The position numbers and the translations under genes are program-made. A DNA stretch of 33,792 nt, taken from NCBI GenBank assembly GCA_020445765.1, contig JAGRFY010000002.1, positions 1 through 33,792 of the forward strand, written 5' to 3'. Each line of letters begins with the position of its first letter. Positions within the stretch are counted from its first letter, which is position 1. Origin of the DNA: Rhodocyclaceae bacterium. GTDB taxonomy: Bacteria > Pseudomonadota > Gammaproteobacteria > Burkholderiales > Rhodocyclaceae. Of the stretch, positions 12,284-32,896 are shown in pieces. Below the pieces are notes generated by a model. That model made no database searches. It saw only the letters and a program-made list of their open reading frames with translations, and had not been told where the DNA came from.

Positions 12284-14824
12284 TCAATGCCCGGTCAGCG
12301 GCTGCGGGCTGCCGAGCTGGAAGCCCTGGCCCAGCTCGATGTCGAACTCGGTGAGCGCAGTGAGCACGGCATCGGACTCGATGTGCTCGGCAAGGCAGCA
12401 GATGCCCAGCTCGCGGGCCAGCGCCGCGATGCTGCGCACCATCGCGCGGTCGCGGTCGCTGTCGAGCATGTTGGTGACGAACTCGCCTTCGATCTTCAGG
12501 TAGTCCACCGGGAAGCGCTTGAGGTAGTGGAACGACGAGAAGCCGGACCCGAAATCGTCGATCGCCAGGCGGAAGCCTTCGTCGGTCAGCCGCGAAATGT
12601 AGTGGTCGAGGACCTCGGGATGTCGAATCGTCTCGCGTTCGGTGATCTCGAACACGATGCGCCGGGAGTCGATGCCGATGTCCTTGACGATGCGGCGAAT
12701 CTCCGGGATGAATTCCTCCAGCACCAGGGCGCGCGGCGACGAGTTCAGGAAAATGTTGCCGGTAAAGCCGGAGTCGGCAAGTTGCCTGAGGGCCTTGCGG
12801 ATCACGATCAGGTCGATGCGATACATCACACCCATGCGCTCGGCCAGGGGAACGAAATCCTCGGCGCCCAGCACGCCGTTGGCGCGCGGCAGGCGGCTCA
12901 GCACCTCGTAGGCGACCACTTCACCGTCGGCCAGTCGCACGATCGGCTGGAAGTACGGCACGAAACTCCTGGCCTCGATCGCATCGAACAGTTGCAGCGT
13001 GCGCTCGCCGGCGGTGCGGAAGGTGTCCGCGAGGTCGTCGGTACTCGGTACCCGGAGTTGGCCCTTGGATTCGGCCTTGGCCTTGTAGAGCATGTTGTCG
13101 GCCAGCAGGAAGAGGTCCTTGGCGTCGCGCGCATGCTCCGGAAAGGCGGCCAGACCGATCGTGAAACCGGACTTGACGATGCTGTTGTCGGGCGCCATCA
13201 GATCGAGCCGGGAGCCGGCCGCGAGCATCCGCTCGGCGACCCGGCTGCCTTCGGAAATGGTCGCGCTCGGCAGCAAGGCGATGAACTCGTCGCCGCCGTA
13301 GCGGGCGACGATGTCGTCCGGTCGTACCGACTGGCGCAGGGCCTTGGCCACCGCCTGCAGGAAACTGTCGCCGAAGGCATGGCCATGGCCGTCGTTGATG
13401 GACTTGAAGTTGTCCACGTCCACCAGCAGCACGACGAAGCGGGTTTCGCGCCGTGCCGCCCGCGCGATCTCGTTTTCCAGCAATTCCCAGAAGATGCGCT
13501 GGTTGTAGAGCTTGGTCAGCGGATCGCGGGTGGCGAAGTATTCGAGCTCGCTGGTGTAGCGGTGGATTGCCTTGACCGAGCCGACCACGTTGAGCAGGGT
13601 GGACAGCACTGAATCGATCACCAGCAGCCGCGCCGGATCCTCGGCCGGATCGGGCTGCAGGCCGATGCCGACGATGCCGCCGATCTTTGGTGCATTGATC
13701 ACCAGCGATTTGGTCTGAAGCTCGGTTCGCGCGTCGTCGGGGTCGAGCGTCGCGGCGGGATCGGCCACGTTGTGGCGGATGCTGCAGCCGGTGGTGCTGT
13801 GGTCCAGCGTTGCATGCAACAGGTTGCGGCGCAGTGCCTGTTCGAAACTGGCGGTCAGCTCCGGGCCCGGGCGCTTGAGCCAGAACACTTCGATCTCGTA
13901 GTCCTGGGGCCCGGTCTTGAAGATCGAGAACAAGGCATAGGTCGGCAGGATGGTATTGATCTCGGACAGCAGGCTGGTGACGTAGTCGCGCCAGTCGCGC
14001 ACGACTTCCGAAGTGATGATGAATTTCTCGAGCAGCCGGATCTCGAATTCGAGCATGTCGCGATCGACCGCGACGCCCCGCAGCCGGTCGGTCAGCCGCG
14101 AAATCTGCTCGCCGATCGGCGCGAATTCGGTGAACGCCAGCATTGGCGGTCGGGCGGCCAGATGCTTGAGATCCGAGACCGAGTTGATCGCTTCGATGTC
14201 GCGGGACAGGGCGGCGATCGAGTGGCTCAGGCGGCGCGAGATATAGACCACCATCAACAGCACGGCGACCGCGGTAATCGGAATCGCCGGCAGCCCGGCG
14301 ACCGTGAAGCGCTCCCGATGGGCCGCGATCAGCGGGCCGATCGATTGCGCCACCGAAACCGCCCCGAGCACTGCGCCGGGGGTCGCGTTGGTGTGGCATT
14401 TCAGGCAGGGTGTGTCGGCGATCAGCGGCATCACGAACCGCACTTCGCCGTCGTCATGCTGCTGGACCGGCCGCGCGCTGCGCACGGCCTGCAGGATCGA
14501 CGGATCGGGCGGGGCCTGTTCGATCTCGCCATAGAGCGCGCTGACGAAAGGCGAGCGGTAGATCTCGATGCGCGCCGGGCTGCCGTCGGCGGCATGGCTC
14601 AGCGAGGCCAGGAACGCCTCGAGCTGTTGCCGGTTCCAGCCGGTGCGCATAAGCTGGAACATGCCATTGAAGCTCACCCGCGCGAGCAGTTGGGCGTCAG
14701 CGACTGCATCCTCCCGCAGGCTTCGTTCGTAGGCTTCGGAGAACGTGTAGTAGCCGAGCGCGAAGAGGCCTGCCGCCAGCAAGGTCGATGTGATTAGGAG
14801 GAGTCCGCGGACGGTTCGGGTCAT
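12284..14824 (-). CDS. Membrane GGDEF-EAL protein with periplasmic heme-c sensor domain
   Basis: The ATG at 14824 is preferred because the first membrane helix (residues 8-26) follows at once; the Shine-Dalgarno is weak. The 846-residue protein has a periplasmic region (27-174) with CLKCH at 140-144, a c-type heme site of the DUF3365/Tll0287-like sensor type. Then come a second helix (about 175-195), a HAMP-like linker, a GAF-like region (270-415), a GGDEF domain with intact GGDEF (510-514) and I-site RPDD (501-504), and an EAL domain from about 620. The EAL signature is EVL (640-642), and the EITE, IDDFG and QGF motifs are kept, though KID is KIE and AEGVE reads AEHIE. It may both make and degrade c-di-GMP in response to heme redox state or ligand (inference). 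Confidence 0.9.
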   Translation of the reverse strand: MTRTVRGLLLITSTLLAAGLFALGYYTFSEAYERSLREDAVADAQLLARVSFNGMFQLMRTGWNRQQLEAFLASLSHAADGSPARIEIYRSPFVSALYGEIEQAPPDPSILQAVRSARPVQQHDDGEVRFVMPLIADTPCLKCHTNATPGAVLGAVSVAQSIGPLIAAHRERFTVAGLPAIPITAVAVLLMVVYISRRLSHSIAALSRDIEAINSVSDLKHLAARPPMLAFTEFAPIGEQISRLTDRLRGVAVDRDMLEFEIRLLEKFIITSEVVRDWRDYVTSLLSEINTILPTYALFSIFKTGPQDYEIEVFWLKRPGPELTASFEQALRRNLLHATLDHSTTGCSIRHNVADPAATLDPDDARTELQTKSLVINAPKIGGIVGIGLQPDPAEDPARLLVIDSVLSTLLNVVGSVKAIHRYTSELEYFATRDPLTKLYNQRIFWELLENEIARAARRETRFVVLLVDVDNFKSINDGHGHAFGDSFLQAVAKALRQSVRPDDIVARYGGDEFIALLPSATISEGSRVAERMLAAGSRLDLMAPDNSIVKSGFTIGLAAFPEHARDAKDLFLLADNMLYKAKAESKGQLRVPSTDDLADTFRTAGERTLQLFDAIEARSFVPYFQPIVRLADGEVVAYEVLSRLPRANGVLGAEDFVPLAERMGVMYRIDLIVIRKALRQLADSGFTGNIFLNSSPRALVLEEFIPEIRRIVKDIGIDSRRIVFEITERETIRHPEVLDHYISRLTDEGFRLAIDDFGSGFSSFHYLKRFPVDYLKIEGEFVTNMLDSDRDRAMVRSIAALARELGICCLAEHIESDAVLTALTEFDIELGQGFQLGSPQPLTGH

Positions 14825-14880
14825 GGGCAGGCAGCAATCCGTTCTGACCGGCCGGCGCGATGCGAATAGCGCACGCAAGC

Positions 14881-14896
14881 TGGTCCGGTTCCTGCG
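14881..14896 (+). promoter_or_regulatory. Possible sigma-54 promoter for the triheme cytochrome
   Basis: TGGTCCGGTTCCTGCG has the obligatory GG-N10-GC spacing (GG 14882-14883, GC 14894-14895). It agrees with TGGCACNNNNNTTGCW at about 7 of 11 fixed positions. Transcription would begin about 30 bases before the likely ATG. In GC-rich DNA such matches arise by chance, so this is weak. Confidence 0.25.
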
Positions 14897-14937
14897 TCCG
14901 GATGCAATTCCCGTGCTTGCGACAGGGGCGATTCGCC

Positions 14938-15543
14938 ATGAACTTCACAGTCAACCGCTCGACGAACCTGCTGGCGCTCGCCGTCGCGCTGCTTGCAGGC
15001 AATCCGGCGGCCGCCTTTCTGCGGCCCGCACAGATCCCGGAATCCGAGGCGCCGGCGCAACCGGCGCCGAAGCCGGCGGGCACCCAGCGGCCGATCGTCG
15101 AGCCGCAATTCGACTCCTACGACCGGGCCAACCCCGACTACGGGCGACTGCAGCGGCCTGAGGACGCGCTGCAGGGCTTCCCGCTGGACGAAAACGGCAA
15201 GGTCGATTGGGCCAGGGCCTTGCGGGACGGCGTGATCTCGCCGCGGGAGGTGTTGCAGGGCGACAAGACCTACCTGCCGCTCGATCTCGATATCGTCATG
15301 CGCAATACCAAGGGCATGCCCTACGTGCGCTTTCCGCACAAGACCCACACCGAGTGGCTGGCCTGCAGCAACTGTCATCCGGCGATCTTCGCGCAGAAGG
15401 CAGGCACTTCGCGCATCCGCATGGAAGACATCTTCCGCGGCGAATTCTGCGGCAAGTGCCATGACCGGGTCGCCTTCATCACCCACCGTGCCTGCTTTCG
15501 CTGCCACAGCGTTGCGCAACCCGGGCAGCGCATGCCGAACTGA
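14938..15543 (+). CDS. Periplasmic triheme c7-type cytochrome
   Basis: Starting at ATG 14938 gives 201 residues with a signal peptide of about 26 residues ending PAAA. A proline-rich linker (35-55) and a spacer lead to the heme domain with CSNCH (143-147), CGKCH (171-175) and CFRCH (186-190). FPHKTH (132-137) and ITHRAC (181-186) offer extra histidines for bis-His ligation. The arrangement matches the c(7)-type triheme domain known from multiheme cytochromes of metal reducers. It is probably a periplasmic electron carrier. It diverges from the heme-c-sensing GGDEF-EAL gene, and the two may share regulation. The region between residues 56 and 130 has no domain I recognise. Confidence 0.88.
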   Translation: MNFTVNRSTNLLALAVALLAGNPAAAFLRPAQIPESEAPAQPAPKPAGTQRPIVEPQFDSYDRANPDYGRLQRPEDALQGFPLDENGKVDWARALRDGVISPREVLQGDKTYLPLDLDIVMRNTKGMPYVRFPHKTHTEWLACSNCHPAIFAQKAGTSRIRMEDIFRGEFCGKCHDRVAFITHRACFRCHSVAQPGQRMPN

Positions 15544-15551
15544 GCGGGCAA

Positions 15552-16277
15552 TCACTCGGAGTTGATGACCAGCGACTTGAGCCTTTCGCGGTCAAGTATG
15601 GTCACGTTGCGCCCGCTCATTTCGATCACCCGCTCGTCGATGAGCCGGCGCAGGATTCGCGAGAAGGATTCATGGGTCAGCGAGAGCAGTGACGCGACCG
15701 TACGCTTGGGCGCCGGCAACTGCACCTGCGTGACCGGGTGGCTGCGCTCCGACAATTCGCTGAGATAGGACGCGACGCGGGTGATTCCGAGCCGCGACGA
15801 GGTCGTGCAGATCGCGTCGATCAGCTTCTGTACCCGGCTCGAGACCTCCCGCAGCATGCGCCCGGAGAGTTCCTGGTCGGATTCGATCGCCTTCATCACG
15901 TGGTGGCGCTCGACGTGCACCAGCGTGCAGCGGTCGACCGCCTGTGCCCACGAGCGGTAGGAGGAGTGCATGAATATGCCGATCTCGCCGAACATCTGGC
16001 CCGAGCTGAACAGTTCGATCACCTTCTCGCGGCCGTCGGCGTCCTGCGCAAGCAGCTTGACCGAGCCACCGATCACGAAATAGAGACCGGTCGGCGCGGT
16101 GCCGCGGCGAAAGATCGTCTGGCCCCGGGAAAAGCGGGTCAGACGCGCCTCGCTGGCCAGCATGCCGATACTCGTCTCCGGCAGTCCCGCCAGAATCGGC
16201 ATGCGCTCCAGCATCCTGTACAGATCGGGGCCGTTCGCCTCGGCGGCGTATCGGTCACCGGCCTGCGTTGGCCGCAT
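15552..16277 (-). CDS. Crp/Fnr-family transcriptional regulator
   Basis: The 241-residue protein follows GGGAGGGG. A cyclic-nucleotide-binding-type beta-barrel spans residues 25-145 (RGQTIFRRGTAPTGLYFVIGGSVKLL, described here as two adjacent blocks, and SSGQMFGEIGIF). A C-terminal winged helix has KRTVASLLSLTHESFSRILRRL as its recognition region. The N-terminal cysteines of FNR are absent, so it should not carry a 4Fe-4S cluster; the ligand could be heme, nitric oxide or something else. It is the last gene of the minus-strand propeller/cytochrome cluster, 45 bp after the second propeller, and may control it or the convergent triheme cytochrome (inference). Confidence 0.9.
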   Translation of the reverse strand: MRPTQAGDRYAAEANGPDLYRMLERMPILAGLPETSIGMLASEARLTRFSRGQTIFRRGTAPTGLYFVIGGSVKLLAQDADGREKVIELFSSGQMFGEIGIFMHSSYRSWAQAVDRCTLVHVERHHVMKAIESDQELSGRMLREVSSRVQKLIDAICTTSSRLGITRVASYLSELSERSHPVTQVQLPAPKRTVASLLSLTHESFSRILRRLIDERVIEMSGRNVTILDRERLKSLVINSE

Positions 16278-16322
16278 TTCGTCCCCTCCCGTGCGCGCCG
16301 CGCGGCAGCCCGCTCCGATGGT

Positions 16323-17588
16323 TCAGTTGATCGTGTCGCCGCGGATGTGCGCGACGCCGCCGTAGCTGCCGACCCAAAGGCTGCCGTCCTCGGTCGTGGC
16401 CATCGAGAACACGGCGTTGCTGAACAGGCCGTCGCCGGTCCTCAAGATCTTGTAGCCGTTGTCCTGTTTCAGCGCGAGGCCATTGTTGGTACCGATCCAG
16501 AGTCGATTCTTGTCGTCTCGGTGCAGCATGAAGACGTGATTGCCGGGCAGCCCTTCCTTGGTCGTCACGTTGACCCAGTTGCCGTCGATGTAATGGGCCA
16601 GGCCGCCCCCCCAGGTACCGGCCCAGACGCTGCCGTCCTGGTCCACCTCGAGTGCAACGATGTAGTTCGGGTTGTAGGCCTGGTCGACGTCCTGCAGGCC
16701 CATCTCGCGCTTCTGCTGGGCGTGGTGCTGCGATGCCTTGCCCGGATCGTCCTTGAACGCGATGTCGTCTCGTACCTTCTCGTAGGGTGCGCCGATGCCG
16801 CGGGAGTGGTTCCAGTTCTCCCACTGGCCGTCGGCGAAGCGCGCCATGCCGCCTTCGGTGGCGAGCCAGATCTCGCCGTTCTTGCCTTCGGCGAGGCCAT
16901 AGACCCAGTCGTTCGGCAGGCCACCGCCGGTGCTCGCGACGGTGTGCAGTTCCCACTGGCTGCGGTCGTGCAGCTTGCCACCCTTGACCCGATTGACGCC
17001 CGACCAGGTGGCAATCCAGATGTCGCCGTCGCGGGTCTCGATGACGTCATAGACGAAGGCGTCGCCGAGTCCCTGGGGGATGTTGAAGTTCTCCCAGGTG
17101 CCCTTCTCCTCGTCGAGCATCGACATGCCGCCGCCGTAGGTGCCGACGGTGAGCTTGCCCTGGATCCGCCCGACGTAGAACATGCCGTTCGAGAGCAGGC
17201 CGGTCTTGACGTCGAAGAGCTTGAAACGATCGGTCGACAACTCATAGCGGACCACGCCGCCGGAGGTGCCGACCCACATCGTGCCGCCGTCGGCATAGAT
17301 CGACTTGACGTTCTTGTTGCCGACGCGGAAATGGGTGAAGCGCTCGGACGGGTTGAAGCCGACCTTGCCTTCGCTGTTGATGCCCTGGTGAGCCGCCGCT
17401 GCGGCGTCGCCAGACGCCTGGGGTGCAGCAGTCGGCGCGGGTGCACTGGCGGCGGCCGGCGCGGGTGCGGGTGCCGCCGGCTTCGGCGCCGGCGCGCTGC
17501 TCTGTCCCTGTTGCTTGCCGACGGTGTAGGCGCCGGCGATCGCAGCGCCTGCCACGATCACCGCGACCGCGAGTGTCTTGTGATCCAT
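16323..17588 (-). CDS. Membrane-anchored seven-bladed Reg_prop beta-propeller (paralog B)
   Basis: The ATG at 17588, with AGGAG upstream, gives 421 residues. An N-terminal hydrophobic segment (residues 5-24) followed by a long Ala/Pro linker (about 32-62) suggests an uncleaved membrane anchor holding a periplasmic domain. Seven repeats with the WxGT-type motif of two-component-regulator propellers follow (MWVGTSGGV, LTVGTYGGG, IWIATWSGV, IWLATEGGM, VWAGTWGGG, LWIGTNNGL, LWVGSYGGV). Reg_prop domains usually form the sensor half of hybrid kinases (family knowledge), but no kinase or output domain is present here. It shares an insertion ending in YNPNY with its neighbour paralog. Role unknown; ligand or protein binding in the periplasm is likely. 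Confidence 0.85.
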   Translation of the reverse strand: MDHKTLAVAVIVAGAAIAGAYTVGKQQGQSSAPAPKPAAPAPAPAAASAPAPTAAPQASGDAAAAAHQGINSEGKVGFNPSERFTHFRVGNKNVKSIYADGGTMWVGTSGGVVRYELSTDRFKLFDVKTGLLSNGMFYVGRIQGKLTVGTYGGGMSMLDEEKGTWENFNIPQGLGDAFVYDVIETRDGDIWIATWSGVNRVKGGKLHDRSQWELHTVASTGGGLPNDWVYGLAEGKNGEIWLATEGGMARFADGQWENWNHSRGIGAPYEKVRDDIAFKDDPGKASQHHAQQKREMGLQDVDQAYNPNYIVALEVDQDGSVWAGTWGGGLAHYIDGNWVNVTTKEGLPGNHVFMLHRDDKNRLWIGTNNGLALKQDNGYKILRTGDGLFSNAVFSMATTEDGSLWVGSYGGVAHIRGDTIN

Positions 17589-17622
17589 TACTGGGAGACT
17601 CCTGGAATTCGTTGATTCGGAT

Positions 17623-18690
17623 TCATTGCTTCTTGCCGATGCGGGCGACACCGTGGCGGGTGCCGGCCCACACCGAGCCGTCGGGCGCCACCGCCAGTGC
17701 ATAGACGTTGGCATCGAGCAGGCCGTCGGCCACCGTGACGTTCTGGAAGGTCTTGCCGTCGTAACGGCTGACGCCCCCGCTGGTGCCGAACCACAGCACG
17801 TCGTCGTGGTCCCGCGCGATCGAGTAGACGATCGTGCCGGCGAGTCCGTCCTTGACCGTGAAGCTTTCGAAATGGCTGCCGTCGAAGCGGCTGACGCCAC
17901 CGCCCCAGGTGCCGATCCACACCTTCTGGCCCTGATCGACGTGCACCGCGAAGCAGTAGTTGGGGTTGTAGGTCTGCATGCCGGCGGCCATCGTCGACAG
18001 GTCATGGCGGCTGCGGGTGCCGAGGCCGGTGTTGGTGCTCGCCGGCCGGTCGTCGGCGTTCGGCGCACCGAGCCCGTCGGCATGGGTCCACGAGCGCCAG
18101 TTCTCACCGTCGTACATCGACAGCCCGCCTTCGGTGCCGAACCAGACCTTGCCCGAACCATCCACGTCGAGGCCGTAGACCCACTCGTTGATCAATTCCT
18201 TGACGTAGGTGGTGAACTCGCCGGTGTCGACATCGAAGCGGCTGGCACCGGCCCAGGTGCCGATCCACAGGTCGCCGTCCTTGCCGTTGGCGAAGGAATA
18301 AATCCAGTAGTCGGCAAGTCCGTGCATCGGGAAATAGGTCTTCCATTGCCCGTCCTTGTAGCTCGACGCGCCGCCGGCATTGGTGCCGAACCACTTGTAG
18401 CCGCGCGTGTCGGTGCCGATCGCGAAGACGTACTCGTTGGCGAGTCCGTCGTCACGGGTGAAGGTGAGCTTGGGGGTGTTGGTGGCAAGGTCGATGGCGT
18501 GGACGCCACTCGAGGTGCCGACCCACATCGTGTTGTCGGTCGGGTCGAGATGCAGCGAACGGACATAGACGTTCTGTCCGACGTTGAAGGTTTCGAGGAC
18601 GACCGGCTTGTCGTCGCCGGCGCTCGCGGCGAGGCTGGTGGCGAGCAGGGCTGAAGCGGCGAGTTGTCGGAGGAATCTGGGCATGGGCAT
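17623..18690 (-). CDS. Secreted seven-bladed Reg_prop beta-propeller (paralog A)
   Basis: The 355-residue protein has a signal peptide of about 24 residues (ASALLATSLAASAG) and seven blades marked by MWVGTSSGV, KWFGTNAGG, LWIGTWAGA, VWFGTEGGL, VWIGTWGGG, LWFGTSGGV and VWAGTRHGV. It is a free propeller in the periplasm with no attached kinase. A roughly 35-residue insertion (about 215-250, ending YNPNY) falls at the same blade as in paralog B. It starts 6 bp after the cytochrome stop without a clear ribosome binding site, so it is probably translated by coupling; a second in-frame ATG at 18684 is an alternative start. Function unknown; it sits between a cytochrome c gene and its paralog. Confidence 0.85.
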   Translation of the reverse strand: MPMPRFLRQLAASALLATSLAASAGDDKPVVLETFNVGQNVYVRSLHLDPTDNTMWVGTSSGVHAIDLATNTPKLTFTRDDGLANEYVFAIGTDTRGYKWFGTNAGGASSYKDGQWKTYFPMHGLADYWIYSFANGKDGDLWIGTWAGASRFDVDTGEFTTYVKELINEWVYGLDVDGSGKVWFGTEGGLSMYDGENWRSWTHADGLGAPNADDRPASTNTGLGTRSRHDLSTMAAGMQTYNPNYCFAVHVDQGQKVWIGTWGGGVSRFDGSHFESFTVKDGLAGTIVYSIARDHDDVLWFGTSGGVSRYDGKTFQNVTVADGLLDANVYALAVAPDGSVWAGTRHGVARIGKKQ

Positions 18691-18696
18691 GGAAAG

Positions 18697-18999
18697 TCAG
18701 CGGTGCAGGGTTCTGAGATAGGCGATGACGTCCCGGATCTCCTGCCGGCGCAGGATGCCGAGGAAACCGGGCATTACGTTCTTGCCGTTTTCGATCGAGT
18801 CGATCAGCATCGTGTCGGGCTGCATCATGCGCTCGCCCTTGGCAAAGCTCGGCGCCGACGGCAGCACCGGATGACCACCGACACCGTGGCAGACCGCGCA
18901 GTTCATGTCGTAGATCTGTCGTCCGTTCATCGGATCCGCCGCCTGCGCCGCGGTTGCGGCGAGCATGGCCAGCAGCGCCATCAGGATGGCATTCTTCAT
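18697..18999 (-). CDS. Small monoheme cytochrome c
   Basis: The 100-residue protein follows AGGAGAA and has a signal peptide cleaved after AAQA (residue 20). The mature part of about 80 residues carries CAVCH (34-38) and the likely axial methionine M76 in NVMPGFLG, typical of class I cytochrome c of the cytochrome c5/cbb3-donor type. It should shuttle single electrons in the periplasm. It sits between a Sel1-repeat protein and two propeller proteins in one apparent operon, with gaps of under 10 bp on both sides, which implies a shared task. Confidence 0.93.
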   Translation of the reverse strand: MKNAILMALLAMLAATAAQAADPMNGRQIYDMNCAVCHGVGGHPVLPSAPSFAKGERMMQPDTMLIDSIENGKNVMPGFLGILRRQEIRDVIAYLRTLHR

Positions 19000-19008
19000 C
19001 GCGTTCTC

Positions 19009-19644
19009 CTATTTCTTGTCCTCGCCCGCCTTGGCGTCGCCGGCCTTCTTGCTCCACAGCGCCGCCTTGTCCGGATCCGGGGCGATGCCGAGCATGCCCT
19101 TCGAGTAGGCCATCGACAGTGCGTCGATCGAACGCATGTAGCCGCTCTCGGCGCTCCGCGTCAGGATCGTTTCGGCGTCCGGCTGATCGGTCGGCGGCGC
19201 CAGTGTGCCGTTGAGCAGGCCGTCCGCCAATGCGTTCCAGGAGCGCTCGTGGCCGAGCGCCGCTGCACGCTTGAGCAGCGCGAAACCCTTTTCGACGTCC
19301 TGCTCGACACCATCGCCGCTGATCGTCATCGACGCCAGGCCGTAGATGCCGTCCGGAAAATCCTGGTCTGCCGACATCTTGTAGTAGCGGTACGCCTCGG
19401 CGTTGTATTCGCCGAGATCGAGGATGTAGGCAAGCATCGACTGGGCGTGGGCGTGGCCGGCGTCGGCGGCTCGGCGAAGCGGTTCCATCGCCGAGAACAG
19501 GTCGCCGCTGCGGAAGGCGGCCATGCCAGCCGCGAAATCGCTATCGACGTCGGCGCGGGTCGCGATCGGTGCGATGGCCAGCAGCACGGCGACGGTCAGC
19601 GACTTGAAAGCGAGAATCGGATTCTTTGCGACGGGAAAGTTCAT
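19009..19644 (-). CDS. Periplasmic Sel1-repeat protein (first copy)
   Basis: I chose ATG 19644, with GGAAAAGG 6 bases before it; ATG 19650 is possible. The 211-residue product begins with a signal peptide (core LTVAVLLAIAPIA, cleavage near TRA-DV). Sel1-type TPR-like repeats follow: FRSGDLFSAMEPLRRAADAGH, AQSMLAYILDLGEYNAEAYRYYK, GIYGLASMTISGDGVEQDVEKG and RSWNALADGLLNG, each cut short here. Sel1 proteins are scaffolds for protein-protein contacts (family knowledge). It is the first gene after the response regulator and lies 9 bp before the cytochrome c gene. A divergent second Sel1 protein is found at 22898-23431. Confidence 0.85.
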   Translation of the reverse strand: MNFPVAKNPILAFKSLTVAVLLAIAPIATRADVDSDFAAGMAAFRSGDLFSAMEPLRRAADAGHAHAQSMLAYILDLGEYNAEAYRYYKMSADQDFPDGIYGLASMTISGDGVEQDVEKGFALLKRAAALGHERSWNALADGLLNGTLAPPTDQPDAETILTRSAESGYMRSIDALSMAYSKGMLGIAPDPDKAALWSKKAGDAKAGEDKK

Positions 19645-19687
19645 GGTCATCCTTTTCCGGGCGGGGTGGGCAGGATCGGCGACTGTC

Positions 19688-21058
19688 TCAGGTCCGCAGA
19701 CCCAGGGATTCGAACTCCTCGATTTTCCGGTACAGGCTCGACAGGCCGATGCCCAGCGCCTGGGCGGCCACCCGTCGGTCGCCGCCGGCCTCGTCGAGCG
19801 CCTTGAACACCAACTGCGCCTCGATCTCGCGCAGCTGGTCGCGCAAACAGCTTGCGGGAGCAATTGACGTGCCAGTGCCGCCTGCGGCGCGGCTGCCGCG
19901 GGTGATCTCGGGCGGCAGGTCGGTCATTGCGATGGCGTCGTCCTCGGCCAGGATGCAGGCGCGATTGATCACGTTCTCGAGTTGGCGCACGTTGCCCGGC
20001 CACGGGTAGCCCAGCAGCAGGCGCTCGGCATCGGCCGCCAGACCGAGCCGCTCGGTCGCGCCCGCCTGACTGCGCGCGCGCTCAAGCAGGAAATCGATCA
20101 GTCCGCGGATGTCGCCATGGCGCTCGCGCAGCGGCGGAATGTGGATGTGGAACATGCTGATGCGGAAGAACAGATCCTCGCGAAACGTCCCGTCGCCAAC
20201 CATCTGCTGCAGATCCCGGTTGGTGGCCGCGATGATGCGGCAGTCCACCCGCCTGGGCTGTTCGCTGCCCACCGCGCGGATCTCCTTCTCCTCGATGGCG
20301 TGGAGCAGCTTGGTCTGCATGTGCATCGGCAGCTCGCCGACTTCGTCGAGGAACAAGGTGCCCTGGTCGGCCTGCAGGAACAGGCCCTTGCGGGCCTTGT
20401 CGGCGCCGGTGAAGGCGCCCTTGGTGTGGCCGAAGAATTCGCTTTCGAGCAGCGTCTCGGGGATCGCCGAGCAATTGACCGGCAGGAACAGATGGTCGGC
20501 CCTGCGGCTGTGTTCATGGATGTAGCGTGCGAGCACGCCCTTGCCGGTACCCGATTCGCCGGTCACCAGCACGGTGCTCTCGGTCGGCGCCACCTTGCCG
20601 GCCAGGCGTTCGACCGCCTGCATCGCCGGCGACGCGAAGCGGAAGGTCGGTGCGTCGCCCTTGGCGAACTGGCGCAACACGCGGTTCTCCTCGCGCAGGC
20701 CACGCAGCGAGGCGACCTGTTGCACGCGGTGCAGGAGTTCCTCCATGTTGGCCGGCTTGACGATGTAGTCGGACGCGCCTGCGCGCAGGGCGTCCACCGC
20801 CGTCTCCATCGACGCGAACGCGGTCACCATGATGAAGTTGGTCTCGATCCGCGACTCCTTGATCGAGCGCACCAGTTCGACGCCGTCGCCATCGGGCAAC
20901 TTGATGTCGCACAGCGCGATGTCCACATCGCCGCGTACCAGCTTGGCGGCGGCTTCCTTGCAGGTTGCCGCCTGATCCACCGAATAGCCGGCACGGGTAC
21001 AGGCGTCCGCGATGATTTCGCGGATGGCACGTTCATCGTCGATTACCAGCACGTGCAT
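19688..21058 (-). CDS. Sigma-54-dependent NtrC-family response regulator
   Basis: The 456-residue protein follows AAGGAGAG. The receiver domain (1-120) has phospho-acceptor D51 in ALCDIKLPDG. The AAA+ domain shows Walker A GESGTGKG (167-174), the sigma-54 contact loop GAFTGA (214-219) and Walker B TLFLDEVGE (234-242). A C-terminal Fis-type helix-turn-helix (about 415-450) binds enhancer DNA. It activates RNA polymerase with sigma-54. It lies 40 bp after the histidine kinase and is almost certainly its partner. The likely targets are the Sel1 gene at 22898 and perhaps the cytochrome genes, since sigma-54-like sequences occur upstream of two of them. Confidence 0.95.
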   Translation of the reverse strand: MHVLVIDDERAIREIIADACTRAGYSVDQAATCKEAAAKLVRGDVDIALCDIKLPDGDGVELVRSIKESRIETNFIMVTAFASMETAVDALRAGASDYIVKPANMEELLHRVQQVASLRGLREENRVLRQFAKGDAPTFRFASPAMQAVERLAGKVAPTESTVLVTGESGTGKGVLARYIHEHSRRADHLFLPVNCSAIPETLLESEFFGHTKGAFTGADKARKGLFLQADQGTLFLDEVGELPMHMQTKLLHAIEEKEIRAVGSEQPRRVDCRIIAATNRDLQQMVGDGTFREDLFFRISMFHIHIPPLRERHGDIRGLIDFLLERARSQAGATERLGLAADAERLLLGYPWPGNVRQLENVINRACILAEDDAIAMTDLPPEITRGSRAAGGTGTSIAPASCLRDQLREIEAQLVFKALDEAGGDRRVAAQALGIGLSSLYRKIEEFESLGLRT

Positions 21059-21098
21059 CGAGTGATCTCTCCTTCAAGGTGTCCGGACTGGCCTGCGG

Positions 21099-22625
21099 TC
21101 ATGCGCGCACGGCTTCGCTTACGTTCAAGGGCAAGGTGATCCGTGCCATCGTACCGGCGCCGGGCTCGGACTCCAGCACCAGCGTGCCGCCACCGTCGAG
21201 AATCAGTTCGCGGCTCAGCGCGAGCCCCAGGCCGGAGCCCTTGCCGGCCGGCTTGGTCGTGAAATATTCGTCGAAGGCGCGACCGAGGGTCTCGGCGTCC
21301 ATGCCCTTGCCGTTGTCGCGCACCTCGATCACGGCATGCCGATCGTCGGTCCGGCTGACGACGTTGATCTCGGGCGCTTCCGGATTATCTTCCATCGCGT
21401 CGGCGGCATTGATCAGCAGATTCATCAGGGTCTGGGTGATGTGGTCGGCGACGGCCCGCACGGCAGGCAGCTCGCCATCGAGATCGGTCGACAGCTCGAT
21501 GCCGCGGAAACGGCGGTCGAAGGCGACGAAGTTGATCGTCGAGCGGATCAGCTGATTGAGATCCAGCAATTCGGGCGAGAGCGGCTGCGGGCGGGTGAAG
21601 TCGGCGATCTGGCGCGTGATCTGGGAAATGCGCCGGGTCTGTTCGAGGATCAGTTCGGGCTCGCAGCTGACGCCCTGGTGCTGGCAGCCGGGAACGCAGG
21701 CCGAACGGATCGAACTGGCGATGCCGCTGATTGCGGCGATCGGGTTGTTGATCTCGTGGGCGAGCTGGGACGCGAGTGAGCCGACCGCAACCATCTTCTC
21801 GCGATGGAACTGCTCCTGGCGGGCACGCTCGATGTGACGCTCCCGTTCGCGCAGGTCGCTCTGCATCTGGTTGACCGCCCGCATCAGGCTGCCGACCTCG
21901 TCGCGGCGGGTGACGTCGAGTTCCTCGCCGCGGTAGCCATTGACGATGTCGAGCGCCCGCGATTCGAGCTTGCGGATGTCCCAGGTCAGCCGGCTGAAGA
22001 AGATCGCGGTCGCGGCGCCGAGCACGATGATGCCGAGCACGGCAAATGCCAGCCCCTGCAAAGTGACCCGGTCGTAGGTGACGCGATACTCGGCGAGCAG
22101 GCGCGCCTTGCGGTCGCGTGTCGCCTGCGTGATCTGCTCGAGCTCGTTGATCAGTTCGTGCAGGGTGGTCCGCGTGACCGCCAGCACGCCGCGGCCCGGG
22201 CTGCTGACCAGATCGTTGGTCAACGCCTGCAGTTCGTGCGAAAGGATCAGGATGCGCGGGTGCTTGTCCTCCAGCGAGCGCAGCAGCGAGCGCGTCGCTT
22301 CGATCTCGATCACCGCCCCCGGGGCGGCGGCCAGTGGGTCGGTCGCGGAGAACGCGACGTTGACCGAGAGCAGCGTGCGTGCCATCGACATGTTGATCTG
22401 GACCAGCAGTTCCTCCGAGCGATGCACTCGCTCGAGGTCTTCGACCATCACCAGCAGCTTCTGGCGCTCGGCGTCGGTGAAGATGCCGACCAGCAGCGCG
22501 TAGAGCACGAAGGCGATGAAGGCGAGCACGCCCTTGACCTTCAGCGAGAGGCCTTCGTGGCGACCGTCGGTGGAAGACGCTTCGCGTTCCTCGTCCGGTC
22601 CAGCGGTGGATTCGTGCTTGCTCAT
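21099..22625 (-). CDS. Membrane sensor histidine kinase with cysteine cluster in the DHp hairpin
   Basis: I chose ATG 22625 (MSKHES) although the Shine-Dalgarno is weak; the frame is open further upstream. The 508-residue protein has helix one near residues 27-48, a helical periplasmic region, helix two near 180-200, a HAMP domain, then HisKA with the H-box LAHEINNP (phosphorylated H290) and an ATPase domain with N-box QTLMNLLINAADAM, DNGKGMD, FTTKPAGKGSGLGL. Between the two dimerisation helices lies a loop with C310, C314 and C321 (CVPGCQHQGVSC), which could bind a metal or an iron-sulfur cluster or form a disulfide (inference). It partners the sigma-54 activator downstream. Confidence 0.93.
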   Translation of the reverse strand: MSKHESTAGPDEEREASSTDGRHEGLSLKVKGVLAFIAFVLYALLVGIFTDAERQKLLVMVEDLERVHRSEELLVQINMSMARTLLSVNVAFSATDPLAAAPGAVIEIEATRSLLRSLEDKHPRILILSHELQALTNDLVSSPGRGVLAVTRTTLHELINELEQITQATRDRKARLLAEYRVTYDRVTLQGLAFAVLGIIVLGAATAIFFSRLTWDIRKLESRALDIVNGYRGEELDVTRRDEVGSLMRAVNQMQSDLRERERHIERARQEQFHREKMVAVGSLASQLAHEINNPIAAISGIASSIRSACVPGCQHQGVSCEPELILEQTRRISQITRQIADFTRPQPLSPELLDLNQLIRSTINFVAFDRRFRGIELSTDLDGELPAVRAVADHITQTLMNLLINAADAMEDNPEAPEINVVSRTDDRHAVIEVRDNGKGMDAETLGRAFDEYFTTKPAGKGSGLGLALSRELILDGGGTLVLESEPGAGTMARITLPLNVSEAVRA

Positions 22626-22664
22626 GCCGTGTGCGGTGGCCGCCGGAACGGTGTTGGCGGCGGC

Positions 22665-22682
22665 GCACCGATGGAATGGTGC
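22665..22682. promoter_or_regulatory. Dyad, possible enhancer site for the sigma-54 activator
   Basis: GCACCGATGGAATGGTGC has arms GCACC/GGTGC with an 8-bp centre that is itself partly symmetric. It lies about 115 bp upstream of the sigma-54-like promoter, a normal enhancer distance. NtrC-class activators bind such dyads. No second copy was found nearby. Confidence 0.4.
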
Positions 22683-22794
22683 GGTATAAGTGGCGCCCGG
22701 GCAAATGCCTGCCTCGTGTCGCGCCCGGTACCGAACTGCAAGATACGCGCCCATGAACCGGGGCAGGGCGAGGACCGGCGCCGCGACCGACTCG

Positions 22795-22810
22795 CGGTAT
22801 GAATCTTGCG
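22795..22810 (+). promoter_or_regulatory. Sigma-54-like promoter for second Sel1 gene
   Basis: CGGTATGAATCTTGCG has GG (22796-22797) and GC (22808-22809) separated by exactly 10 bases, with a perfect TTGC at -12. The -24 part is weaker. Transcription would begin near 22821, leaving a leader of about 77 bases. Confidence 0.4.
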
Positions 22811-22897
22811 CGGGTCGCCGCGGTCGTTCATCTGCAGAGGGCAATGGCCTCGATCGCCGCGCGCTCGCCCCTTCCCCGAAAAGGAGTCCCGTTCCCC

Positions 22898-23431
22898 ATG
22901 CTCAAAAGTCTGTGTCTGTCCCTTGTCCTGCTGGTCGGCGCGGCGCCTGCACTGGCGGCGCCGGTCGATGACGCGATTGCGCTGCTCGACGCAGGCAAGT
23001 ACGAGGAGGCCGCGCAACAGCTCCAGCCGCTGGCGGAGCGCGGCGACGCAATCGCTCAGCACCGGCTCGCCATTCTGTACTTCTACGGTCACGGCGTTCC
23101 CGAAGACGAGAATCGCGCGCTCGAACTGGCGCTGCGCAGCGCAGAGGCGGGCAACGTCGACGCGATGTTTCTGGTCGGCAACATCTACGTCTTCGGCCAT
23201 ACCGTGCCGAACGAGGCGGACGATCCGGATCTCGAGGCGGCAAAATGGTTCCACGAGGCCGCGAGTCGGGATCATGCCGAGGCCGAATACAACCTCGGGC
23301 TGCTGTTCCTCGCCGGCAAGGGCGTGATCCGCAGCCAGGAAGAGGCCATGAAGTGGATCCGGCGGGCCGCCGACCACGGCCATGCCGGCGCCCGCAACTT
23401 TCTCGGCGGCGAGGACGGTCACGCCAAGTGA
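22898..23431 (+). CDS. Periplasmic Sel1-repeat protein (second copy)
   Basis: I chose ATG 22898 because a signal peptide follows directly (LCLSLVLLVGAAPALA). The AAAAGGAG is about 12 bases away, somewhat far, and the frame is open upstream. The 177-residue product has Sel1 repeats: AIALLDAGKYEEAAQQLQPL, AQHRLAILYFYGHGVPEDEN, AMFLVGNIYVFGHTVP, AEYNLGLLFLAGKGVIRSQE and a final AMKWIRRAADHGHAG (each shown in part). It is probably a scaffold in the periplasm. It is divergent from the histidine kinase and has the best sigma-54-like promoter of the window, so it may be a direct target of the two-component system. It resembles the Sel1 protein at 19009-19644 in plan but is not a near copy. Confidence 0.87.
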   Translation: MLKSLCLSLVLLVGAAPALAAPVDDAIALLDAGKYEEAAQQLQPLAERGDAIAQHRLAILYFYGHGVPEDENRALELALRSAEAGNVDAMFLVGNIYVFGHTVPNEADDPDLEAAKWFHEAASRDHAEAEYNLGLLFLAGKGVIRSQEEAMKWIRRAADHGHAGARNFLGGEDGHAK

Positions 23432-23456: not shown

Positions 23457-23978
23457 TCAGCGGGCGGCGGAATGGCCGCCCAGCGCATCGAGAATGTCCT
23501 GCAGCGCGTCGTCCTGATCCCATTCCCGCGCCCCCAGGTACTTGCCGACGATGCGCCCGTCGGCGGCGATGTAGTAGGTCACCGGCAGCGCAATTGCTTC
23601 GAGCTGGCGGAAGGTCTCCGAGGCACTGACCGCCACCGGTGTCGGCAGCGTGATCGCGTACTTGCGCAGGAATTCGTCCATCAGCTTCAGATCGTCGTCG
23701 ACCGACAGCGCGACGACGTCGATGCCGTGTGTCTCGAGCCGCGCGGCAAGCGCCTGTAGCGCCGGCATCTCCTTGCGGCAGGGACCACACCAGGTCGCCC
23801 AGACGTTCAGCACGGTCGGCCCTTGCGGAAGTTCCGACAGCAGTTCGGGACTTCCGGTCGCGGCGCGCAGCGGCAATGGCGGGAGATGCGTCGGCGACGG
23901 TTCGGTCGGTCCGGCAATGGCCTGGGTCGCCGCGACGACGAGACCGATCAGCCACTTGCGGGCAATTGCGGGGGTCAT
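23457..23978 (-). CDS. TlpA/ResA-like periplasmic thioredoxin
   Basis: The 173-residue protein starts at ATG 23978, overlapping the previous stop in ATGA, with GGAG 8 bases upstream. A signal peptide or anchor (residues 8-22, IAG site) precedes a thioredoxin fold with the active site WCGPC (63-67) and the cis-proline block ALPVTYYIAADG. It is likely a reductant or exchange protein for cysteine pairs in the periplasm. It ends a run of cytochrome c maturation genes and is distinct from CcmG (active site WCVSC). Coupling to the DUF3365 heme protein suggests it keeps that CxxCH reduced for heme attachment, or uses it as a partner (inference). Confidence 0.9.
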   Translation of the reverse strand: MTPAIARKWLIGLVVAATQAIAGPTEPSPTHLPPLPLRAATGSPELLSELPQGPTVLNVWATWCGPCRKEMPALQALAARLETHGIDVVALSVDDDLKLMDEFLRKYAITLPTPVAVSASETFRQLEAIALPVTYYIAADGRIVGKYLGAREWDQDDALQDILDALGGHSAAR

Positions 23979-24589
23979 GGCGGTGTCTCCGGCAGCGGCT
24001 TCTTGAACGAGATTGCGCCGAGCATGTCGCCGGCGCGATAGCCGGTCGCCCGATCGTGCGGGTATTCGCTGGCGAGCCTGGCGCGGGTCGCGGCAGTCAT
24101 CGATGCCACCGGGCCGTGGCAGCTTACGCACAGGGTGCCGGCGACGATGGCCTTGAGATAGCGGAAATAGCGACCGGCCGGCTCGTCGACGACTTCGGCG
24201 ACTTCGAGTGCCGACAGCGCCTCGCCGCGGCCCACCCGCCGTTCGAATTCGAGGAGTTGGGTCTGCTCCCAGCGATCCGCGGTTCCTAGGGACGGATTGC
24301 GTACGCGCAGGGTCACCCGCCGGACCTGGGCACCGTAGCGGCGCGACAGGGCGGAAGTCAGTTCCGGCGCGGTGTACTTGCAGACGACGATCGAACGCAG
24401 GGTTCCGCTGATGGCGTACTCGCGAGCCAGTTCTCCGGCGATCTGCTGGTGAAGTTCGTTCACCGCCGTGCGTGCCTCGTCGGTCAATTCGCCCATCTGG
24501 CTCGCGTCCGGCGCCGCCATGGCCGCAACCGCGACCCACGATGACGCGAGGGCGGCAAGCAGGGCTAAGGCAATGCGGCGAGGTGTCAT
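23975..24589 (-). CDS. Stand-alone DUF3365 (Tll0287-like) c-type heme protein
   Basis: The 204-residue protein has an N-terminal signal peptide or anchor (residues 6-25) and one c-heme motif, CVSCH, at 154-158, in the context EPAGRYFRYLKAIVAGTLCVSCH that marks the DUF3365/Tll0287 sensor fold (shown here with the preceding helix). Normally this fold is a periplasmic sensor fused to kinases or cyclases; the GGDEF-EAL protein at 12284-14824 is such a fusion. Here it stands alone. A further cysteine (C70) could be a ligand or redox partner. It starts 25 bp after ccmI and overlaps the TlpA-like gene by 4 bases, so it is co-expressed with the maturation machinery. Its function is unknown. Confidence 0.82.
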   Translation of the reverse strand: MTPRRIALALLAALASSWVAVAAMAAPDASQMGELTDEARTAVNELHQQIAGELAREYAISGTLRSIVVCKYTAPELTSALSRRYGAQVRRVTLRVRNPSLGTADRWEQTQLLEFERRVGRGEALSALEVAEVVDEPAGRYFRYLKAIVAGTLCVSCHGPVASMTAATRARLASEYPHDRATGYRAGDMLGAISFKKPLPETPP

Positions 24590-24614: not shown

Positions 24615-26246
24615 TCAGCGGATCTCCCGACCGATGATCAGATCGAGGCCGCTGCTGTTCGACCGCACCGGATCCGAAAGGATCTCGAAATCACCGGGCT
24701 GTGGCGCAGCATTGCCCGAGCGCGACACCCGTGCACCGACGACGACCTCGGGAAAGGCCGACAGTCGCATTGCCGGCGTCATCGCCATCGAATCGTCGAG
24801 CGTGAAAGCCAGCGGCAGGTCGCGCACCTGCTTGCGCAGGATCGCCAGTGGCATCCGCGGGCCCGTGGCCGCACGGGCGAAGATGAACACGGTATCGGTC
24901 GGCGCGACGCGCTCGCCGACGCCCGCCGCCAGCGATACCTGGCCGCTGAGCCCGGCTGCCGCGGCCGGCGCCGCGGCTTCCGCCGCCGCTGGCGGCGCGC
25001 CGGCGGACATCGTGGCGCGGCCGCCGAGGACCAGCTCGACCGCGGTCGCGGCGTGCGGGTCGAAGGCCTCGGAGAAGATGTCGATGTCGCCGGGCTGGGG
25101 CGTGGCGCTGCCCGAGCGCGACACCCGGGCGCCGACCTGAACCTTGCGGAAGGCCGACAGCCGTGCCGCGGGCATCATCGCCATCGAATCGTCGAGGGTG
25201 AATTCGAACGGCAGATCCCGTACCTGCTTGCGCACGATCGCGAGCGGCATGCGCGGACCATCCACCGCTCGCGCAAACACGAACACGGTATCGTCCGGTT
25301 GCAGCTGTGCCGTGATCGCGCCATCGGCACTGACCCGCCCACTGACGGCAACCGGACTGCCGGCGGCAGCCGACGCGCTGGTCGTGCCGCCGCTGGCGCC
25401 GAGGCGATTGCGTGCCTCGGCGATCGATCCGGCGACCGAGCGAGCGGTCGGCGAATCCGGTGCGACCTGCGATTCGATGCGCTGCCAGAAGTCGATTGCA
25501 GCGGCGTAGTCGCCACGCTCGAAGGCGGCCGTGCCAGCCAGGGCCAGGGCTTTGACGTTGCGCGCATCGAGTTCGAGCGCGCGCGCGATGATGCTTTCGG
25601 GCTCGCCGCTCAGCTGCCTGCCGCGAGCCATCGCCAAGGTGTCGGCATAGTCGGCCAGCAACTGGGCATCGGCCGGCAGCAAGCGCGTCAGCGTGCGGAA
25701 GGCCTCGGCCGCTTCCGGGTAGCGTCCGAGCGCATTGTAGGTGCGCGCCAGCATGACCCAGCCTTCCGCGTCGTCCGGGGTCTCGCGCAGCCGCGCAGCG
25801 AGCTTTTCGACCATCGCTTCGACCTGCTCCGCCGTCAGCGAGTGGCCTTCGCCGGCGTTCGCACGGGCGGTGACCGCCGACGGATTGAGCGCTTCCGGGC
25901 TGCCGAGGTAGAGGTATAGCGGGATCGCCAGCGCCGGCAACAGCAGCACGATGGTCGCCACCAGGCCGATCGGCGGCCGGCCCGCCACCGCCGATTCGGC
26001 CGCAGCGGACTCCTCGAGCACCCGGCGTTCGAGTTCGCCTCGAGCCTTCTCGAACTGGGCATCGTCGATCTCGCCGGCCTGATGTTCGGCTTCGAGTTCG
26101 CGCAGCTGATCGCGAAGGACGGTCAGGTTGGCGACCTGGTGGTCGGCGCTGCCTTCGATGCGAATCCGGCCGCCGAGCAGCGGCGGCACGACGAACAGCA
26201 GCGCGCCCGCCATCAGCATGGCGGAAACGACCCAGAACGTGATCAT
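24615..26246 (-). CDS. ccmI: CcmI (CycH), apocytochrome c chaperone, with duplicated C-terminal domain
   Basis: The start ATG overlaps the ccmH stop (ATGA). The 543-residue protein has two N-terminal membrane helices (2-22 and about 93-113) with a cytoplasmic coiled segment between (LTVLRDQLRELEAEHQ), then a periplasmic TPR domain (about 130-290) with AEGWVMLARTYNALGRYPEAA. CcmI binds the C-terminus of apocytochromes and hands them to CcmFH (family knowledge). The C-terminal Ig-like CycH domain is present twice, near residues 298-391 and 432-525, joined by an Ala/Pro linker. By hand 59 of 77 core residues are identical between the copies. This makes the protein longer than usual. Family identity is firm. 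Confidence 0.93.
   Translation of the reverse strand: MITFWVVSAMLMAGALLFVVPPLLGGRIRIEGSADHQVANLTVLRDQLRELEAEHQAGEIDDAQFEKARGELERRVLEESAAAESAVAGRPPIGLVATIVLLLPALAIPLYLYLGSPEALNPSAVTARANAGEGHSLTAEQVEAMVEKLAARLRETPDDAEGWVMLARTYNALGRYPEAAEAFRTLTRLLPADAQLLADYADTLAMARGRQLSGEPESIIARALELDARNVKALALAGTAAFERGDYAAAIDFWQRIESQVAPDSPTARSVAGSIAEARNRLGASGGTTSASAAAGSPVAVSGRVSADGAITAQLQPDDTVFVFARAVDGPRMPLAIVRKQVRDLPFEFTLDDSMAMMPAARLSAFRKVQVGARVSRSGSATPQPGDIDIFSEAFDPHAATAVELVLGGRATMSAGAPPAAAEAAAPAAAAGLSGQVSLAAGVGERVAPTDTVFIFARAATGPRMPLAILRKQVRDLPLAFTLDDSMAMTPAMRLSAFPEVVVGARVSRSGNAAPQPGDFEILSDPVRSNSSGLDLIIGREIR
24670..25354 (-). repeat. Tandem duplication inside ccmI
   Basis: Two in-frame copies of roughly 280 bp (about 25075-25354 and 24670-24953) encode the repeated CycH-type domain. 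They are separated by about 120 bp coding an Ala/Pro-rich linker. The match is visible at DNA level too, for example the shared cgagcgcgacacccg at 24719 and 25110. Confidence 0.85.
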
Positions 26247-26719
26247 TTGCTGTCTCCGCCGTCCGCCTGTTCGAGCAGGCTGTAGGCCTGACGCTTCTGT
26301 TCCGGCGTGAGTTCCGCAGCCTGGATCTGGGCCGTCCGGCGGCGCAGCTTGACGAACAGCGTGCCGAGGCCGAGCACCAGCAGGACGCCGGGGCCGAACC
26401 ACAACAGCCAGGTGGTGGACTTGACCTGCGGCTTGTACAGCACGAAGTCGCCGTAGCGGGCGACCATGAAGTCGATGATCTCCTGGTCGGACTTGCCGGC
26501 ACGCATCATCTCGCGGATCTCGTTCTTGAGATCCACCGCCAGCTCGGCGTGGGAGTCGGCGATCGTCTGATTCTGGCAGACCAGGCAGCGCAGCAGATGG
26601 CCGACCTCCATGACCCGTTTCTCGAGCACCGGATCATCGCTTGCCGGCACCGCCTCCGCGGCGATGCCCGGTAGATGGATCAATACCGCGAACACTGCGG
26701 CAACGAACTTACGAAGCAT
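26243..26719 (-). CDS. ccmH: CcmH, cytochrome c maturation thiol-disulfide subunit
   Basis: The 158-residue protein has a signal peptide (to about residue 21), the hallmark LRCLVCQNQ with C45 and C48, the typical IADSHAELAVDLKNEIREMM helix block (three-helix bundle), and a C-terminal membrane helix (about 103-123). CcmH reduces the apocytochrome CxxCH in the CcmFHI heme lyase complex of the inner membrane (family knowledge). Its 5' end overlaps ccmG by 11 bases and its 3' end overlaps ccmI by 4. Length and motif are normal. Confidence 0.96.
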   Translation of the reverse strand: MLRKFVAAVFAVLIHLPGIAAEAVPASDDPVLEKRVMEVGHLLRCLVCQNQTIADSHAELAVDLKNEIREMMRAGKSDQEIIDFMVARYGDFVLYKPQVKSTTWLLWFGPGVLLVLGLGTLFVKLRRRTAQIQAAELTPEQKRQAYSLLEQADGGDSK

Positions 26720-27236: not shown

Positions 27237-27241
27237 GTCAG

Positions 27242-32892: not shown

Positions 32893-32896
32893 GATC

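Follow-up and report, generated by a model that had tools for sequence, protein, structure and literature searches.

A propeller and cytochrome cassette as a candidate accessory and control arm of a Uet-type multihaem-cytochrome island in a Rhodocyclaceae bacterium

A conserved cassette of propellers, cytochrome and regulators

The stretch of DNA analysed here (the window; 33,792 nucleotides, positions 1 to 33,792 of contig JAGRFY010000002.1 in assembly GCA_020445765.1) comes from a Rhodocyclaceae bacterium and carries a compact cluster of eight genes. These encode two propeller proteins of the Reg_prop family (A and B), a small cytochrome c (CYT), two Sel1-repeat proteins (Sel1a and Sel1b), a sensor histidine kinase (HK), an NtrC-type response regulator and a Crp/Fnr regulator (Table 1). 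The genes for HK, NtrC-type regulator, Sel1b, CYT, A, B and Crp/Fnr form, in this order of transcription, a minus-strand tandem with gaps of 9, 6 and 34 bp between Sel1b, CYT, A and B, and the Sel1a gene is divergent; by eye, its start at 22898 is likelier than one at 22799. An earlier note on this DNA, made from the sequence without database searches, had described a tight cluster of seven minus-strand genes plus one divergent gene, and indeed all eight are present and their named domains are borne out by a Pfam scan. The 4.84-Mb genome yields six Reg_prop matches (E up to 0.001), every one within A or B.

The known place of Reg_prop propellers is in hybrid kinases, where they form the sensor half; in a PDB sequence search A resembles such a part (4a2l, E 5e-29). 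The earlier note took A and B to be free, exported propellers. This stands insofar as a Pfam scan found no kinase domain in either protein, but B is probably membrane-tethered rather than free, because it has an N-terminal hydrophobic segment followed by a Pro/Ala-rich linker. That segment is found in 59 of the 60 scorable B orthologues (out of 77), with linkers of 21 to 73 residues. The profile set of CYT has CXXCH in 64/64 sequences and, by a crude pattern, a Met-Pro-like distal ligand in 57/64. A long conserved insertion is common to A (17955-18085; alignment of 65 sequences) and B (16660-16810), ends in a YNPNY consensus and has an invariant Arg-His (A) or His-His (B) close by; it could mark where a ligand or partner binds.

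Used as a query against the species genomes of GTDB, A gave 265 confirmed relatives, and the best 80 of these were read (loci L047-L126). The tallies that follow cover judgeable loci only. The profiles were made from those same 80 loci and therefore match them by construction, and the loci were picked by A, so that the tallies show the constancy of neighbours and not the frequency of those neighbours without A. B follows A in 76/76 loci; a first tally gave 75/76, the sole apparent miss, in L113, being a coordinate artefact in a locus with a continuous B frame. CYT stands directly before A in 74/79 loci, and Sel1b (66/70), the NtrC gene (59/67), HK (53/62) and Sel1a (36/62) are present to varying degrees. 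The order HK-NtrC-Sel1b-CYT-A-B holds in most of the 80 loci, the core order CYT-A-B recurs in records whose titles name Rhodocyclaceae, Ramlibacter, Gallionella and Chromatiales, and some named strains of Aromatoleum, Ramlibacter and Dechloromonas carry the cassette. The earlier note's proposal of a module linked to redox proteins is thus upheld, and it withstood the test that the note itself had set, namely whether propeller homologues occur scattered without the cytochrome or Sel1 gene. Its inclusion of Crp/Fnr in the set did not survive, as this gene is near A in just 6/80 loci and was dropped as a core part.

The Uet-type island and the company of propeller A with UetJ

The window is probably one half of a multihaem-cytochrome island, the other half of which lies on contig C2 of the same genome. 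The closest description that we found is that of the Uet (undecahaem electron transfer) cluster of 'Candidatus Tenderia electrophaga' (Eddie et al. 2022, as described in PMC10734462), which comprises UetA (tetrahaem cytochrome), UetB (peptidyl-prolyl isomerase, PPIase), UetC (barrel), UetDEG (trihaem), UetHI (NHL) and UetJ (undecahaem). On C2, and likewise in genomes G001 and G057, a UetA-like tetrahaem cytochrome, a PPIase, a barrel protein, trihaem cytochromes and two NHL proteins follow one another; the PPIase, barrel and NHL labels were given by eye, and the Uet letters were assigned from the description in PMC10734462 and not by alignment to Tenderia. The uetJ-like gene of C2 (C2:17105-18889) has 8 CXXCH motifs up to the contig end, compared with 11 in G001 and G057, and the match of the own genome to the UetJ profile has an E value of 1e-273.

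G001 and G057 each carry the whole region on a single contig. The region begins with a tetrahaem cytochrome, an NHL-type propeller, an OmcE-like tetrahaem cytochrome, a PPIase and a barrel-like protein, continues with tri- and tetrahaem cytochromes, two NHL-type proteins and the 11-haem cytochrome, then with ResB and CcsB (these two recognised in G001 only), a COX1-like protein, Ccm genes, Tll0287 and TlpA, and ends with HK, NtrC, Sel1b, CYT, A and B; several of these labels were given by eye, and additional genes are interspersed in G057. In the own assembly C2 stops inside the 11-haem gene and the window contig (C210) inside resB, and the join is absent from the assembly. Since resB overlaps the end of the uetJ-like gene in G001, C2 and the window probably adjoin, with approximately 1 kb missing. 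Among the loci, a cytochrome with 9 to 11 CXXCH motifs lies upstream of ResB in L079, L093 and L122, the others being cut by the flank; in L079 (Ramlibacter lithotrophicus) the UetJ-like gene is in the same locus as the cassette. Both the tetrahaem UetA-like cytochrome of L106 and the UetJ-like protein of L122, the latter over its N-terminal region, match PDB 7tfs (E 2e-17 in each case) and 9yuq. We take 7tfs to be the OmcE filament. The predicted function of the island is electron exchange with extracellular solids.

Does the cassette go with Uet beyond this lineage? We compared strong matches to A and to UetJ in three genome samples, which share the own genome and some negatives. Among 101 relatives, ten have both, one has A only, none has UetJ only and 90 have neither; rows with weak matches only were dropped (3/14 A genomes, G042, G067 and G081, and 3/13 UetJ genomes, G022, G035 and G043). 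For the 369 genomes of the class the corresponding numbers are 38, 3, 2 and 326 (Fisher p 9e-46, not corrected for relatedness), after dropping A matches weaker than 1e-100 (29/70 genomes) and UetJ matches weaker than 1e-90 (14/54 genomes). The frames listed for the dropped A genomes are mostly longer than 1,000 aa, and G134, G157 and G244 have one propeller gene each. The sample of 398 genomes of the phylum, with a cut-off of 1e-40 applied within the search, gives 20 with both, none with A only, four with UetJ only and 374 with neither. Over the three samples together, with the own genome counted once, 66 of the 70 distinct genomes that have strong A also have UetJ. These genomes do not count as independent: of the families in the class sample, 21 have A, 20 have UetJ and 19 have both, and 11/20 phylum positives come from two families. 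A and B are side by side in 39/41 strong-A class genomes (on different contigs in G187 and G201) and in 20/20 strong-A phylum genomes, and A and UetJ share a contig, 5.7-47 kb apart, in 17/38 class genomes with both. Fourteen class genomes have weak UetJ-profile matches only, to other multihaem cytochromes, and 13 of them lack strong A, the remaining one being G187; the propellers thus go with Uet and not with OmcE-like cytochromes in general.

Control of the cassette, and its neighbours in the window

The NtrC-type regulator has the receiver, AAA+ sigma-54 domain and helix-turn-helix (HTH) by which a sigma-54 regulon of this type is recognised, and RpoN is encoded in the own genome. A perfect -24/-12 site precedes sel1b (Table 1), and a second lies 85 bp before uetA on C2 (start codon placed by eye); the two are among 16 perfect sites in the 4.84 Mb of the genome, vs. 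3 for the reversed pattern. Because perfect sigma-54 sites precede both sel1b and uetA, the kinase-NtrC pair probably switches on the island. In the region before sel1b (or CYT), a perfect site is found in 15/74 judged loci and at least 10 of 11 positions match in 19/74. Control scans gave 0/675 perfect and 6/675 with at least 10 for random windows, and 0/740 and 7/740, respectively, for shuffles. The perfect sel1b sites are mainly in the nearest lineages and hence are not independent events. For close homologues of uetA (47 to 100% identical) in six islands, sites at 85 to 118 bp score 11, 11, 10, 10, 9 and 8. The dedicated two-component and sigma-54 control proposed in the earlier note holds in part: gene anatomy gives the control step good support, but in this lineage only, the sites being weak or absent in many others. 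The region before uetA also has an inverted repeat, TCTCAAAG-N10-CTTTCAGA, which is kept in G001 and is not found before sel1b; it is a possible enhancer. On L131 (G000:C2), two sigma-54-like sites, at 4682 and 7053, lie before cytochrome genes and score 10 and 11 of 11.

The kinase has approximately 140 residues between its two transmembrane-like segments, likely a periplasmic domain of its own. Its gene also encodes a short Cys-rich insert (21660-21760; C-x3-C-x6-C) after the phospho-acceptor His. An HExNNP box is present in 41/57 kinase orthologues, and the 75 residues that follow it contain 2-4 Cys in 28/41 and one or none in 13/41. Since just 28 of the 41 boxed orthologues have these cysteines, the insert could be a sensor or switch for redox state or metals that is specific to certain lineages.

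Upstream of the cassette, the window carries cytochrome c maturation genes and several others, up to a ResB gene cut by the contig end (Table 1). The stretch 29303-30162, before CcmF, has no called gene; a CcmD-like frame is visible by eye near 29700-29900. In the COX1-like protein HxH is conserved and the HH pair is not (15 relatives), so that it is perhaps a haem-copper oxidase relative without CuB. The trihaem cytochrome on the other side of the cassette is 47% identical to that at C2:14210-14860, and such a cytochrome is near A in 20/80 loci. Two further families were seen downstream of the propellers in other loci: a heptahaem cytochrome with doubled CXXCH motifs after B (2.8-4.1 kb after A in L066, L091, L110 and L125; the L110 member was scanned with Pfam), and a small protein recurring approximately 3.8 kb after A in 12 loci, of which the member at L067:13864-14124 is a HiPIP-type iron-sulphur protein.

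Table 1 Features of the window, with the genes of the cassette and its sigma-54 site first.
Feature	Position	Strand	Evidence and remarks
Sensor histidine kinase (HK)	21099-22625	minus	Two transmembrane-like segments, HAMP, Cys-rich insert in HisKA hairpin
NtrC-type response regulator, sigma-54 activator	19688-21058	minus	Response_reg, Sigma54_activat E 3e-68, HTH_8 (Fis-type HTH)
Sigma-54 (-24/-12) site TGGCACGTCAATTGCT	19859-19874	minus	Perfect match; inside 3' end of NtrC gene, ~215 bp before sel1b
Sel1b, exported Sel1-repeat protein	19009-19644	minus	Sel1 E 3e-13
CYT, small exported monohaem cytochrome c	18697-18999	minus	Cytochrome_CBB3 E 6e-13; CAVCH; likely Met distal ligand (VMPGF, by eye)
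Propeller A	17623-18690	minus	355 aa; Reg_prop E 4e-23; seven WxGT-type blades and N-terminal signal-like segment by eye
Propeller B	16323-17588	minus	421 aa; Reg_prop blades E 1e-28; N-terminal hydrophobic segment, Pro/Ala-rich linker
Crp/Fnr regulator	15552-16277	minus	Pfam; local addition
Sel1a, divergent exported Sel1-repeat protein	22898-23431	plus	Sel1 E 3e-26
TlpA/ResA-like thioredoxin	23457-23978	minus	Redoxin/AhpC-TSA; WCGPC by eye
Tll0287-like exported protein	23975-24589	minus	PF11845 E 4e-21; one CXXCH
CcmI, CcmH, CcmG, CcmF (cytochrome c maturation)	24615-29302	minus	Domain matches
TPR protein	30163-30762	minus	Like protein at same place in G001 (by eye)
Open frame with COX1-like membrane protein	30746-32515	minus	Exact start uncertain (near 32000)
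CcsB-type System II cytochrome assembly protein	32080-32934	minus	Below NCBIfam equivalog cut-off
ResB	32897-33790	minus	Cut by contig end
c7-type trihaem cytochrome	14860-15543	plus	TIGR04257 E 5e-17; paralogue of UetD/E/G-like cytochromes on C2
GGDEF/EAL protein	12284-14878	minus	CXXCH-bearing N-terminal sensor region (CXXCH by eye)

The role of the cassette

Given the genes that make up the cassette, their conserved order, its almost one-to-one occurrence with UetJ and the sigma-54 sites of this lineage, we consider it fairly likely that it serves the Uet-type extracellular electron-transfer island as a dedicated periplasmic arm for accessory functions and control. This context was missed by the earlier note: with moderate confidence, the locus is an arm of an island with UetA-like and UetJ-like multihaem cytochromes, set among cytochrome c maturation genes. 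In such an arrangement, the kinase would sense a periplasmic or redox cue and phosphorylate the NtrC-type activator, which together with sigma-54 would turn on uetA as well as sel1b-CYT-A-B, the latter from a promoter that lies within the 3' end of the activator's own gene. B would be anchored in the inner membrane via its N-terminal helix and flexible linker and would pair with soluble A, and the pair would keep CYT in place between the electron chain of the inner membrane and the trihaem cytochromes of Uet. Sel1b could serve as a further adaptor, and the adjacent Ccm/Ccs, TlpA and Tll0287 genes would support haem-protein maturation. For A, B, CYT and Sel1b themselves, a relay scaffold linking the trihaem Uet cytochromes with the inner membrane appears to fit best. 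More tentatively, A and B might be a new electron-transfer part, an inner-membrane-tethered, haem-free pair of seven-bladed propellers that docks CYT and gates electrons between the inner membrane and an OmcE-like cytochrome wire; the Uet model, in the literature found, does not include such a component.

Several observations weigh against this reading of an accessory and control arm. Ten genomes have only one of A and UetJ: G017, G187, G311 and G459 have A only, and G157 (one propeller with a weaker match), G181, G500, G554, G568 and G633 have UetJ only. In the other 21/38 class genomes with both, which are draft assemblies, the main A and UetJ matches fall on separate contigs. In 5/79 loci (L062, L087, L108, L110 and L121) A-B have no CYT beside them, and the 1.5 kb preceding A contain no CXXCH in any of the three forward frames, so that a relay role for CYT could not be universal. 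With regard to control, perfect sel1b sites are confined to the 15 of 74 loci given above, with weak sites or none in many other lineages; 12 more distant tetrahaem paralogues in six islands score 0 to 8 of 11, and no enhancer shared by uetA and sel1b was found when the regions before their sigma-54 sites were searched.

In a close rival reading, A and B would not be relay parts but would help to assemble the Uet multihaem cytochromes or control their quality, acting in folding, haem loading or outer-membrane delivery. This rival is a close one because the A-B pair is more constant than CYT and is usually near maturation genes: with the window proteins alone as queries, and hence independently of the locus-built profiles, Ccm or ResB genes were found in 56/80 loci and in 54/60 of those whose upstream flank reaches 9 kb or more, while 4/80 loci have both kinds. 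The nearly one-to-one link of A with UetJ also speaks for this rival. On the other hand, CYT directly precedes A in nearly all loci, Pfam and NCBIfam scans of A and B gave Reg_prop blades and nothing chaperone-like, and the island already has a PPIase and NHL-type propellers (labelled by eye). We regard an assembly role as rather unlikely.

Somewhat less likely, in our view, is that the kinase has A, B and CYT as its periplasmic sensor, i.e. a split Reg_prop sensor that reports redox state to NtrC. The part played by Reg_prop propellers in hybrid kinases, the match of A to such chains and the operon company of the NtrC and HK genes are all in keeping with it, but the kinase seems to own a periplasmic domain, and CYT-A occurs without an HK or NtrC match within 9 kb upstream in 5/62 loci with at least 5.5 kb upstream, unlinked copies not having been sought (L070, L088 with 5.6 kb upstream only, L093, which ends after A, L107 and L112). 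Of the earlier note's idea of a complex that senses or relays redox state, it is the sensing that is weakened by these loci as the main idea. Pieces of polysaccharide-sensing hybrid kinases were also considered for the propellers and dropped, given the redox context and the lack of a kinase fusion. That the genes are ordinary neighbours with no common function is very improbable, as the CYT-A-B order is conserved across Rhodocyclaceae, Ramlibacter, Gallionella and Chromatiales and A co-occurs with UetJ in three samples; nothing was found in its favour except the general clustering of cytochrome genes.

How does the cassette compare with known systems? A and B share their repeat family with the Reg_prop hybrid two-component sensors (4a2l, 3v9f and 3ott), from which they differ in being separate proteins with no kinase domain on the chain and with the kinase encoded separately in the locus. 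The OmcE filament of Geobacter, presumably 7tfs, is alike in sequence to two proteins of the relatives, the UetA-like one of L106 and, over its N-terminal part, the UetJ-like one of L122; UetJ-like proteins differ in having approximately 11 haem motifs. The Dechloromonas work cited below is said to describe a similar gene cluster. FoxEYZ, which acts in Fe(II) oxidation (PMC10654088), is alike in its manner of working, as a propeller and a cytochrome c take part in extracellular electron chemistry; the likeness is by description and not by sequence, and FoxY is predicted in the same source to have eight blades. The Uet conduit is known already, also in Betaproteobacteria: in the sources as seen, Uet is reported in six Gallionella (PMC10734462), UetJ in Leptothrix-group genomes (PMC13386937) and, according to a citing paper, an undecahaem cytochrome in Dechloromonas occultata (Szeinbaum et al. 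2020), and three trihaem genes rank among those that Tenderia expresses most strongly on a cathode (PMC5371394). The Tenderia cluster and the island of C2, G001 and G057 have counterparts of UetA, B, C, DEG, HI and J in common, likened by description. The description in PMC10734462 names UetA to UetJ and leaves the Reg_prop pair, CYT, Sel1, HK-NtrC and the Ccm/Ccs arm unmentioned; Eddie et al. 2022 may cover them. Our literature search, which did not cover that original paper, found no description of the Reg_prop pair with the cassette, and provisionally these are new relative to the Uet descriptions found.

The Uet literature found, as far as its text was available, does not cover how the conduit joins the inner membrane or how it gets switched on. 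A propeller pair that keeps company with UetJ in nearly all strong-A genomes provides a concrete list of missing Uet parts, and the sigma-54 sites point to a regulator, so that, given the named strains that bear the cassette, the question becomes testable at the bench. If the more tentative reading as an electron-gating part is true, the propeller pair would be a component absent from the Uet model as so far described in those sources.

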